From Acidimicrobiales bacterium (GTDB lineage Bacteria; Actinomycetota; Acidimicrobiia; Acidimicrobiales; SKKL01): 64,000 nt of DNA. Location of the stretch: the NCBI GenBank assembly GCA_034521975.1, contig JAXHLR010000004.1:334165-398164 (forward strand), read 5' to 3'. The notes beneath the pieces are model-generated. The model saw nothing but the letters and a program-made list of their open reading frames with translations, was not told the origin of the DNA and did no database searches. The position numbers and the translations under genes are program-made. Positions 31,479-53,962 of the stretch are shown here, one piece after another; position 1 is the first letter of the stretch; each line of letters starts with the position of its first letter.

Positions 31479-32591
31479 ATGCACCGATCGGTGGGTGTCG
31501 CCCTGGCCCTGACCCTCATCCTCGCCGCCTGCGGTGGCGACGACGACGCGGGTCCGAACGAAGGTGAGCAGCCCCCGTCGACGGTCGAACCCGGCCCCTC
31601 GGTCCCGGTGCGGGTCATCGGCGCCATCGAGGAGACCGACGAGGGCTGGCTGCTCTGTCCCGGCGCGGTCGCTCCCTGTTGGCCGGTCGTCGACGACCCC
31701 GAGCCCGGGACGCGTTCGGGTTCGGTCGTCGCGACCGGCACCTGGGACCGCGACACCATCGACCTCGACACGGTCGAGCCCGGGCCCCGAGACCGGTCCG
31801 GGCTCACCAACCCCTGCCGAGCAGAGGGTGACCAGCCCGACGAGGTGTGGCAGGACGACGAGGCCTTCGACGACTACGTCGAGTCGATCCCCGAGCATCT
31901 CGCCGGCGTGTGGCTGGCCGACGACGTGTTGGTGATGGTCGTCACCGACGACGTCGGGGCGCACCGCGCCGCTCTCGATGACCGGGGGATCCAGGGTGTC
32001 TGTGTTGCCGACCTGGGGTTCGAGCACACCCTGGCCGAGCTCGACTCCACCCTCGAGGAGATGTCACAGCGCTGGCCGTCGTGGGCAGACCAGGGATGGG
32101 TGGTGCTCAGCGGCAGCGTCGACGTCGCGGCGAACCGGGTCGTCGTCGCCTTCGACCAGATCGACCAGGGCCTCCGTGACGAGATCGAGACGACGTGGGG
32201 TGACCGGGTGGAGATCCGCGCCAACGTCGAGGTGCTCGACGGCCCGGTCGAGCAACTGGAGTTGCCGCCAGCCGAGAACGAGATCACCGTCACCACCCAG
32301 CCGCGAGGATCGGGTGGCATGGACGCGCTGGGTCGGTTCACCCTGCGGTTCGATGCGGGCCGTGAGTGCCTGTACCTCGAGGCGAGCGACGGCAGTCGCA
32401 CCAAGCCGATCTGGCCGTTCGGCTACCGGGCGCTGCCGGACCCGGTCCGCGTGGTCGACGGTCGGGGTGAGGTGGTTGCGGTGGTCGACCAGCAGCTCGA
32501 GCTGGGTGGCGGGTCCGGACAGGTGCTCCCCGACTCCGACGACCCCACCGACTGCGGAGCCGCCACCGTCTGGGTGATCAGCCCCACCTGA
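31479..32591 (+). CDS. Predicted lipoprotein of unknown function
   Basis: The 370 residues begin MHRSVGVALALTLILAACGG, a lipoprotein signal peptide with lipobox LAAC (Cys18). A Pro/Ser-rich spacer precedes a folded region with several cysteines (LLCPGAVAPCW, NPCRAEG, DAGRECLY) and a Trp-rich ending. It is likely anchored on the outer face of the membrane. It is divergent from ftsK with a 124-bp gap and is followed by a strong hairpin. I do not recognise a family. Confidence 0.85.
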   Translation: MHRSVGVALALTLILAACGGDDDAGPNEGEQPPSTVEPGPSVPVRVIGAIEETDEGWLLCPGAVAPCWPVVDDPEPGTRSGSVVATGTWDRDTIDLDTVEPGPRDRSGLTNPCRAEGDQPDEVWQDDEAFDDYVESIPEHLAGVWLADDVLVMVVTDDVGAHRAALDDRGIQGVCVADLGFEHTLAELDSTLEEMSQRWPSWADQGWVVLSGSVDVAANRVVVAFDQIDQGLRDEIETTWGDRVEIRANVEVLDGPVEQLELPPAENEITVTTQPRGSGGMDALGRFTLRFDAGRECLYLEASDGSRTKPIWPFGYRALPDPVRVVDGRGEVVAVVDQQLELGGGSGQVLPDSDDPTDCGAATVWVISPT

Positions 32592-32638
32592 GCCCCCCGG
32601 GCCAAGTCCGCCTCCACCGCATGACCCCCCCCAACGCG

Positions 32639-32685
32639 TTCTGTGAAGAGTTTCCAACCGCATGGGTGCGAAACCCTTCACAGAA
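32639..32685. terminator. Large inverted repeat between convergent genes
   Basis: The arm TTCTGTGAAGAGTTTC (32639-32654) pairs with GAAACCCTTCACAGAA (32670-32685); 15 of 16 positions match. The 15-nt spacer itself can extend the stem through CAACC and GGGTG around GCAT. It lies between the lipoprotein stop and the rnj stop, so a bidirectional terminator is the simple reading, although neither side has a long T run. Confidence 0.7.
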
Positions 32686-32713
32686 GGCCGGGAGCCGAAG
32701 AGGGGCTGATCCG

Positions 32714-34375
32714 TCAGGCCTCCATGACCACGGGGACGATCATCGGACGGCGCTTGGTCCGCTTGTTCACGAACCGGCCCGCGGCCCGGCGCACCACCCG
32801 CTGGATGGTCTCGATGTCGCGGCCCTCGTTGACCAGCGCGTCCTCGATGGCCTCGCGCACGACCGTGGTGGCCTCGTCGAGCAGGTCCTCGGCCTCGGGG
32901 GCGTGGATCCAGCCCCGGGTGATGAGCTCGGGACCGGTGATGACCGTCCCGGCCATCACGTCGATCGCGACGACCACGACCACCACGCCTTCCTCGGCCA
33001 AGACCCGACGGTCGCGCAGCACCCCATGGCTGACGTCGCCCACGATGCCGTCGACGTAGAGATAGCCGGCCGGCACCGGGTCACCCCGCTTCAGGCCGTC
33101 GTCGGAGAGCACCACCGAGTCGCCGTCCTCGCACAGCAGGATGTGGTCGGGGTCCATCCCGACCGCGGAGGCCACCTTGGTGTGGGCGACCATGTGGCGA
33201 TACTCGCCGTGGACGGGGATGAACCACTCGGGCTGCACGATCGAGTGGAGCGTCTCGAGCTCGCCGGCCTTGGCGTGACCGGTGGCGTGCACGTCGGAGA
33301 TCCCGGAGTGGACGACATCGGCGCCGAGTCGCACCAGCCCGTCGATGACCTTGCTGACGTTCATCTCGTTGCCGGGGATGGGGTGCGAGCTGAGGATGAC
33401 GGTGTCGTCGGGGGTGATCTTCAAGAACTTGCTCTCGCCGGCGGCCATGCGGGCCAGCGCCGACATGGGCTCGCCCTGGCTGCCGGTGGAGATCACACAG
33501 ACCTGGCCGGGGTCGAGGTCGGCGACGTCTTCGATGTCGGCGATGGCGTGGTCGGGGATGTGGAGCAGGCCGAGGTCGCGGGCCAGCTTCACGTTCTTCT
33601 TCATGGACATGCCGAGGGTCACCACCGTGCGGTCGAAGGCGATGGCCGCGTCGGCGATCTGTTGCACCCGGTGGATGTGGCTGGCGAAGCTGGCGGTGAC
33701 GATGCGCCGCCCCTCGTGGGCGTGGAACAGGTCATAGAGCACACCCCCGACCGACGACTCGGACCGGGAGTGACCCGGTTCTTCGGCGTTGGTCGAGTCG
33801 GCGAGCAGGAGTCGGACTCCTCCGTCCTTGGCGAGTTGGCCCATGCGGGCGAGGTCGGTGAGTCGACCGTCGACCGGGGTGAGGTCGAGCTTGAAGTCGC
33901 CGCTGTGGAGGATGGTGCCCTGGGGCGTGTGGAACGCGGTGGCAAACCCGTGGGGCACCGAGTGGGTGACGGGGATGAACTCGACGTCGAAGGGCCCGAT
34001 CTGGCGTCGCTCGCCGTCGCGCACCGGGATGAGCTCGGTGCGCTTGAGCAAGCCGGCCTCCTCGATGCGGTTCCGGGCGATGCCGAGGGCGAGCTCGGAG
34101 CCGTAGACGGGGAAGGAGACGTCGCGCAGCAGGTACGAGAGGCCACCGACGTGGTCTTCGTGGCCGTGGGTGGTGAGACAGGCCTCGATGCGGTCGGCGT
34201 TGTCGAGCAGGTAGGAGAAGTCGGGTAGCACCAGGTCGATGCCCAACATGTCGAGGTCGGGGAACATCAGTCCGCAGTCGAGCAACATGATGCGGCCCTC
34301 GACCTCGATGCAGGCACAGTTGCGCCCGATCTCGCCCAGGCCTCCGAGGAAGGTGATCTTGACCGGTGCCGGCAT
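32714..34375 (-). CDS. rnj: Ribonuclease J
   Basis: Metallo-beta-lactamase/beta-CASP RNase with 5'-3' exo- and endonuclease activity in mRNA decay and rRNA maturation. The 553 residues have the metal motif THGHEDHVGG (H70, H72, D74, H75), SGDFKLD, the beta-CASP domain (STGSQGEPMSALARMAAG, SSHPIPGNE) and HVHGEYRH-like IPVHGEYRH. Its ATG overlaps the dapA stop (TGATG), so dapA-rnj is a coupled pair, a common actinobacterial arrangement. Confidence 0.97.
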   Translation of the reverse strand: MPAPVKITFLGGLGEIGRNCACIEVEGRIMLLDCGLMFPDLDMLGIDLVLPDFSYLLDNADRIEACLTTHGHEDHVGGLSYLLRDVSFPVYGSELALGIARNRIEEAGLLKRTELIPVRDGERRQIGPFDVEFIPVTHSVPHGFATAFHTPQGTILHSGDFKLDLTPVDGRLTDLARMGQLAKDGGVRLLLADSTNAEEPGHSRSESSVGGVLYDLFHAHEGRRIVTASFASHIHRVQQIADAAIAFDRTVVTLGMSMKKNVKLARDLGLLHIPDHAIADIEDVADLDPGQVCVISTGSQGEPMSALARMAAGESKFLKITPDDTVILSSHPIPGNEMNVSKVIDGLVRLGADVVHSGISDVHATGHAKAGELETLHSIVQPEWFIPVHGEYRHMVAHTKVASAVGMDPDHILLCEDGDSVVLSDDGLKRGDPVPAGYLYVDGIVGDVSHGVLRDRRVLAEEGVVVVVVAIDVMAGTVITGPELITRGWIHAPEAEDLLDEATTVVREAIEDALVNEGRDIETIQRVVRRAAGRFVNKRTKRRPMIVPVVMEA

Positions 34376-53644: not shown

Positions 53645-53962
53645 GCGGCTGGACCCCCAGGATCTCGAGGGCCATCGATGACCTGGCTGACCCCGAAACC
53701 TCGCGGATTCGGCGCGCTGAGCGCGACAAATCCGCGACATCTCCTGGCTGGGTGGTCCTGAGCAGCAGCTCGACGTAGCGACGGAGGGGTGGGTGTGTGT
53801 CAGGGCGATGCTCCTCATGTTGGCGATGCGCTTGCTCGGAGTCGGCGCAGCCATCTGGGGCCAACGCCTGAGCGCCCAGGAGCCGACGACCGACCTGGTG
53901 ATCCGCGACGACGCGATGCTCACTGATGGCGAACCGATCCCGATCGGCCAGACTGGTCGGCG
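53645..53962. other. 318-bp gap with one hairpin
   Basis: The only gene-free stretch over 300 bp. CGCGGATT (53702-53709) pairs with AATCCGCG (53729-53736), and inside it CGCGC-TGA-GCGCG forms a second stem, so a 35-nt stem-loop follows the kinase gene. The short frame running through the rest into the VOC gene has no recognisable product. I see no promoter motif, tRNA or repeat. Confidence 0.6.

Follow-up and report, generated by a model that had tools for sequence, protein, structure and literature searches.

A 47-bp palindrome between convergent genes of an Acidimicrobiales genome, probably a solo copy of a mobile element paired with AbiEi/MTES_1575 nuclease genes

The palindrome and its copies in the genome

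The DNA analysed here is a stretch of 64,000 nucleotides from an Acidimicrobiales bacterium, hereafter the window, in which a short palindrome is located between the 3' ends of a plus-strand gene and the minus-strand gene for RNase J. The features of the locus are as follows:

31491..32591, + strand: gene without family match, predicted by a codon-model gene caller; its stop codon lies 47 nt before the element
32639..32685, + strand: 47-bp palindromic element, putative solo copy, oriented so that the loop reads GCATG; 18 of 21 pairs formed
32639..32659, + strand: left arm with the outer box TTCTGTGAAG; among the 24 copies of the related genome G006, conservation is highest in the outer 10 bp
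32660..32664, + strand: loop GCATG, identical in 4 of the 10 other seed copies of the same genome
32665..32685, + strand: right arm with the outer box CTTCACAGAA
32714..34375, - strand: RNase J (TIGR00649, 513.5 bits with a cut-off of 400); its stop codon lies 28 nt after the element

The original prediction, made from the letters alone, had described an inverted repeat with AT-rich arms that differ from their surroundings, can be extended through the loop and lie between convergent genes, and each of these points agrees with our results. The arms TTCTGTGAAGAGTTTC (32639-32654) and GAAACCCTTCACAGAA (32670-32685) are complementary at 15 of 16 positions and have only 6 G+C of 16 each, against about 70% G+C in the window, and they grow inward to the full palindrome of 47 bp with its 5-nt loop. 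As for the neighbouring genes, the plus-strand one has no NCBIfam match, and the convergent setting is as described. Folded as RNA, either strand of the element outperforms all of 200 shuffles (z -4.8 and -4.9). It is also the best palindrome of 41-51 bp in the window, and an equal one appears in one of ten composition-preserving shuffles of the window; the symmetry alone is not overwhelming, and a chance origin would be possible on that ground. It is the copies elsewhere in the genome, rather than the symmetry, that place the palindrome beyond chance. Within the window none of 4227 Rfam families reaches its gathering score, and at 32400-32900 no hairpin followed by a T-run, as in an intrinsic terminator, is found on either strand. 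A second and weaker palindrome at 53695-53743 of the window (17 of 22 pairs) falls within the range of shuffled windows.

The suggestion that the repeat might be dispersed is borne out by a genome search. The 16-base arm pattern with at most 2 mismatches gives 15 matches, two of which are the window's own arms, and the reversed pattern used as control gives none; inspection of these sites together with one further site yields 11 clear copies of 47 bp. The best preserved is located at C6:604833, where all 21 stem pairs are formed. A covariance model (R1) was trained on these 11 copies, and its re-finding of the same 11 sites is circular by construction; the window copy, itself in the training set, scores 72.9 bits and is second best of the 11. 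Beyond the training set R1 gives one weak extra site at C3:145907 (E 0.03), and everything else has E above 0.5. In the seed set of this genome alone, covariation is not above that of shuffles.

Related palindromes in the order and the sites they occupy

Matches to R1 are present in 8 of 41 genomes, namely the window's own and 40 relatives. For a test of length, 7 genomes were searched with TTCTGTGANG-N{10,40}-CNTCACAGAA, which permits anything from 30 to 60 bp, and 33 pairs were obtained (23 in G006, 8 in G016 and 2 in the window's genome; control 0). As many as 32 of them are exactly 47 bp long, and the remaining one has 43 bp. Across the 24 copies in G006, the outer 10 bp are essentially invariant and the inner stem is variable with compensation: 38 changes affect both sides of a pair, against 17.9 +/- 3.0 in shuffled sets, with 0 of 500 shuffles as high. 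Such compensation is not an effect of the model, because 23 of the 24 copies are matches to a pattern that is blind to the inner stem. With a second model (R2), built from 53 copies, and an E limit of 0.001, matches appear in 49 of 397 genomes from the order, representing 35 of 203 genera. In G204 and G316 the palindromes have 49 bp, those of G204 being very G+C rich inside, and therefore the fixed length depends on lineage. In G343 two equally oriented solo palindromes are separated by about 170 bp (C3, 1192-1408, locus L218).

When named genomes were scanned with the exact pattern, 26 stretches were found, of which 24 come from MAGs labelled Acidimicrobiia, Microthrixaceae, Actinobacteria or Actinomycetota, one from a 'Chloroflexi' and one from a 'bacterium'. 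The stretch in the 'Chloroflexi'-labelled MAG (JAJFTV010000073.1, 3254-3300, locus L165) is a 47-bp palindrome in AT-richer surroundings, its box being TTCTGTGAGG and its inner stem perfect, and may reflect transfer, mis-binning or chance.

Intergenic copies are located between convergent genes much more often than would match the share of such pairs among genes in general. Among 62 intergenic elements pooled from G006, G009, G016 and the window's genome, 33 lie between convergent genes, compared with 36 of 220 adjacent gene pairs taken from the window and 25 of 26 named loci with genes from our own codon-model caller (odds ratio 5.8, p 2e-8). In G006 there are moreover 7 of 24 copies inside open reading frames; 6 of these 7 share the same phase and therefore encode similar peptides. 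For example in a thiamine-diphosphate enzyme, the peptide encoded by the element lies where 3eya, the closest PDB homologue, shows a gap. An empty site is seen at a convergent junction where G195 has a copy and G170, of the same genus, has none, the two stop codons overlapping directly in G170; this comparison is of one locus at about 75% DNA identity. Together, the empty site and the in-frame intragenic copies indicate that the palindromes have been inserted. In the flanks, no target-site duplication is recognisable by eye. As for the window itself, the 3' end of RNase J in G001, a genome of the same genus, bears a degenerate 47-bp relative (read by eye), and in none of 11 other genera does a palindrome follow the RNase J orthologue; the age of this insertion is therefore probably that of the genus. 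We also noted a CoA-transferase family III protein in G006 (C12:6485, locus L101), which has several matched stretches with the element in frame between them.

A nuclease gene between paired palindromes

In six genomes the palindromes occur as pairs about 1 kb apart, and in all 6 cases the pair encloses a single gene of one family, whose product joins an AbiEi-type N-terminal domain to an MTES_1575/DUF559 nuclease domain. Of the 6, 4 have one Pfam domain or more above its cut-off and 2 have sub-threshold matches only; PADLOC profiles for AbiEi match all 4 enclosed proteins tested. The proteins are diverse, the other five being 25-30% identical to the first. In an alignment of 50 genes, some of them poorly aligned in this region, the E of the common E-x-D is present in 46, its D in 35 and the H in 40. 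The structure predicted for one nuclease from a 2-row alignment has a mean pLDDT of 37 and forms no part of the argument.

Searching 14 genomes with the alignment of the six proteins gives 94 matches in 13 of them, including 6 in the window's genome. The flanks of 50 of these 94 genes were analysed, a palindrome being counted at a score of 6 or more. A palindrome is found on at least one side in 40 of the 50 and on both sides in 25, against 9 of 109 control windows; furthermore, in 30 the left and right flanks resemble each other more closely than 99.9% of mismatched flanks do, and 4 of the 50 have neither flank palindrome nor flank match. Most of these palindromes lie no further than about 100 bp from an end of the gene, and they differ from gene to gene. 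Similarity of the proteins is not significantly related to similarity of the palindromes in a Mantel test (rho 0.11, 174 of 2000 permutations). In a sample of the phylum, the gene occurs in 34 of 90 genomes. Out of 28 loci taken there, one was lost to a contig end. The other 27 divide into 12 above the flank-match threshold and 15 below it, and a palindrome of score 6 or more stands on at least one side in 12 of these 27. One match lies on a named plasmid in Tsukamurella.

If each gene has a palindrome of its own, the dispersed copies in the same genome should resemble that palindrome. For G006, G015, G016, G171 and G195, the palindrome match was the route to the gene, hence these genomes are not independent in this respect. 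Among genomes chosen for their solo copies only, a nuclease gene with the same palindrome is found in 3 of 4 (G063, G204 and G343). G143 has dispersed TTCTTTGAAGG palindromes (loci L224 and L225), which none of the 4 genes examined, out of its 8 nuclease genes, carries. The strongest test goes from gene to copies, in G009, a single contig without any R2 match that was entered as a negative control. Its gene at C1:4620202 is flanked by a different palindrome. A search for it with at most 3 mismatches gave 29 places, the two flanks plus 27 elsewhere in the genome, and none for the control; thus the flank palindrome of a gene predicted its own solo copies, and the prediction for this genome, set beforehand, came true. 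In 20 stretches, 22 of these copies are alike over about 51 bp and then diverge; 12 are located between convergent, 7 between tandem and 3 between divergent genes, with 0 inside genes. At the level of sequence, these comparisons establish an association of gene and palindrome.

Reading of the element, its rivals and known systems

In our view the palindrome of the window is probably a non-autonomous solo copy. The palindromic mobile element to which it belongs would, when autonomous, consist of a palindrome, an AbiEi/MTES_1575 nuclease gene and another palindrome. More broadly, and with a confidence a little better than even, we propose that Actinomycetota harbour a class of mobile DNA whose palindromes of 47-51 bp, one at each gene end, are propagated by an AbiEi-wHTH joined to a restriction-type (MTES_1575/DUF559) nuclease and by no transposase, recombinase or HUH enzyme. 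Each gene would evolve its own palindrome, so that many independent pairs of gene and palindrome would exist within one order.

In this proposal the nuclease would be the mover of the palindrome, and a route of binding, cleavage and copying can be envisaged. The AbiEi-like N-terminal domain would recognise the outer box of its own palindrome (TTCTGTGAAG in the window copy), the MTES_1575/DUF559 domain would cut at or beside that box, and the hairpin DNA would then be copied or repaired so as to be inserted at a new site, mostly at gene ends. The gene itself would rarely be mobile, and it is the bare palindrome that would spread, as is thought for RAYT and REP. We prefer such direct spread to a model in which the full element moves and then collapses, because there are more solos than genes and no two genes of one genome were seen to share a palindrome. 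Binding of inverted repeats by AbiEi proteins is described in PMC7319586. The idea of a protein-binding palindrome, which the original prediction had also raised, is accordingly plausible by way of the AbiEi-type DNA-binding domain of the cognate gene family.

Several other explanations were weighed. The palindrome could be a bidirectional terminator or an mRNA-stabilising hairpin serving two convergent genes, its copies being a useful module. The strong hairpin on both strands, the excess between convergent genes (33/62 versus 36/220) and the 47-bp relative at the 3' end of the RNase J orthologue in G001 all speak for it. However, there is no T-tract on either strand; termination needs neither an exact length nor a conserved outer box, both of which are nearly constant here; copies occur within reading frames; 11 of 11 other genera do without a palindrome after RNase J; and the gene-specific palindromes at nuclease genes would be left unexplained. 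We therefore do not retain the terminator offered in the original prediction as the primary identity of the element and hold this explanation unlikely, with a side effect on termination being possible. An operator or regulon is also conceivable, in which the palindromes are sites for the AbiEi-like protein, acting in autoregulation and at dispersed places without any mobility. It would agree with the inverted-repeat binding of AbiEi antitoxins described in PMC7319586 and with the closeness of most palindromes to gene ends (within about 100 bp), yet the palindromes stand at both ends of the gene and not at the promoter side only, the solos lie at gene 3' ends and inside genes instead of at promoters, near-identical copies of 47-51 bp have unrelated flanks, and the orthologous site in G170 is without one. 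All this makes mere regulation very unlikely.

Homing would keep mobility and assign it to the full element, which would invade a palindrome by double-strand break repair and later be lost by recombination between the flanking palindromes, leaving the solos as vacated or empty sites. A flanking pair could indeed recombine in the manner that gives solo LTRs, and the C-terminal domain belongs to a family of restriction-endonuclease type; but solos stand to full elements as 27 to 1 in G009, and in no genome were two of the examined genes seen to have the same palindrome. The excess of solos and the lack of shared palindromes mean that full elements do not appear to multiply, and we regard homing as an improbable account. 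Finally, hairpins might simply be expected from the composition of a GC-rich genome, and one of ten shuffled windows does contain a palindrome as good; such an artefact is refuted by the copies of the same sequence, by their near-fixed length and by the prediction that came true in G009, and its probability is practically negligible.

Some further candidates were tried and rejected. Insertion into pre-existing terminator hairpins, an idea that arose from flanks looking complementary by eye, gives a mean flank complementarity of 6.47 for 96 elements, no higher than the 6.45 obtained after permutation within genomes. A mobiliser of RAYT/IS200 type is rejected for the window's genome, where the Y1/RAYT transposase family PF01797 has 0 matches, 5 of 14 control genomes being positive. 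Carriage by phages was considered for both partners: two viral stretches of one same sequence match the palindrome, with a poorly palindromic AT-rich interior, and are probably unrelated, and 18 viral stretches matched the peptide pattern of the nuclease, with 0 confirmed relatives in viral contigs. In G009 two solo pairs with a spacing of about 0.9 kb (loci L342 and L343) recall a composite transposon and enclose non-nuclease genes, of mycothiol maleylpyruvate isomerase type and for a luciferase-like monooxygenase; we take them as coincidence. Apart from these rejected candidates, a MITE with a DDE parent transposon would be marked by a target-site duplication and by a parent transposase sharing its ends; to the eye the flanks contain no such duplication, and the gene that has the same ends here comes from another family.

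Among known systems, the closest likeness in architecture is with REP/RAYT (the REPtron), for which PMC8266576 and PMC3733652 describe short dispersed palindromes, found chiefly between genes and close to their 3' ends. There, as here in relatives of the window's genome, the palindromes scattered through a genome also stand on either side of a gene, and gene and palindrome family are paired in sequence. The differences are that the enzyme here is an AbiEi and MTES_1575/DUF559 protein instead of a Y1 HUH transposase, and that the stem is longer, about 21 bp where PMC3733652 gives 5-13 or 8-9 bp for REP, closes on a 5-nt loop and belongs to an element of nearly fixed length (47-51 bp). By eye, the flanks of the copies have no GTAG/CGTC tag at a constant position. 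Rickettsia palindromic elements (RPE), as described in PMC10969869, also include palindromic repeats in frame inside protein genes, although the window copy itself is intergenic; they measure about 150 bp against 47 bp here, belong to another phylum and another sequence, and have no cognate nuclease described in that source. The AbiEi antitoxins of type IV toxin-antitoxin systems have in common with our genes the N-terminal AbiEi domain and inverted repeats near the gene. Unlike in AbiE, here there is no AbiEii toxin gene, all 6 palindrome pairs enclose one gene only, the fusion is to a nuclease domain, and the repeats are present on both sides of the gene as well as dispersed in the genome.

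Small, repeated nuclease genes, as here, are otherwise represented by Vsr/EDxHD homing endonucleases and by the mycobacterial DUF222-HNH repeat family REP13E12, and we know of no flanking and solo palindromes for either. To our knowledge the AbiEi/MTES_1575 enzyme class has not been known to spread palindromes, and for this reason we hold the kind to be new; if architecture is weighed over enzyme, it could be classed as a variant of the REPtron kind. A search of open-licence literature found no link of DUF559, MTES_1575 or AbiEi genes to dispersed palindromes.

If the proposal is true, the problem addressed by REP/RAYT, that of a tiny palindrome with a dedicated enzyme to spread it, would have a second and independent solution drawn from a restriction-nuclease family, and one more way would be known in which 47-bp palindromes come to lie at gene 3' ends and in some protein loops. 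Genes of the nuclease family are annotated only as 'DUF559 domain-containing protein'; in view of their presence in 34 of 90 phylum genomes, a common family of unknown role would thus receive a function. The proposal can be tested directly, since from each gene one can predict what its solo copies should look like in sequence.

As for a partner of the window copy, the best candidate in its own genome is the gene at C3:146054, which is 63% identical to a gene of G001 (C98:22123, same genus). The latter has TTCTGTGAG-type palindromes on both sides, and C3:146054 has a related palindrome on its left side only, at C3:145907. Its product has no Pfam match to MTES_1575 or DUF559 at E 0.01 and carries Tyr in place of the Asp of the common E-x-D, as likewise does the G001 gene, so judging by its sequence this partner looks degenerate. 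For this reason the local palindrome family is probably decaying, which fits its imperfect copies, and the window copy is probably now immobile. Other AbiEi-type genes in the same genome, at C5:61081-61983 (L251), C6:216631 (L260) and C6:537224 (L261), have flank repeats or palindromes of their own that are unrelated to the window palindrome, the two flanks of L251 being identical at 43 of 45 positions.
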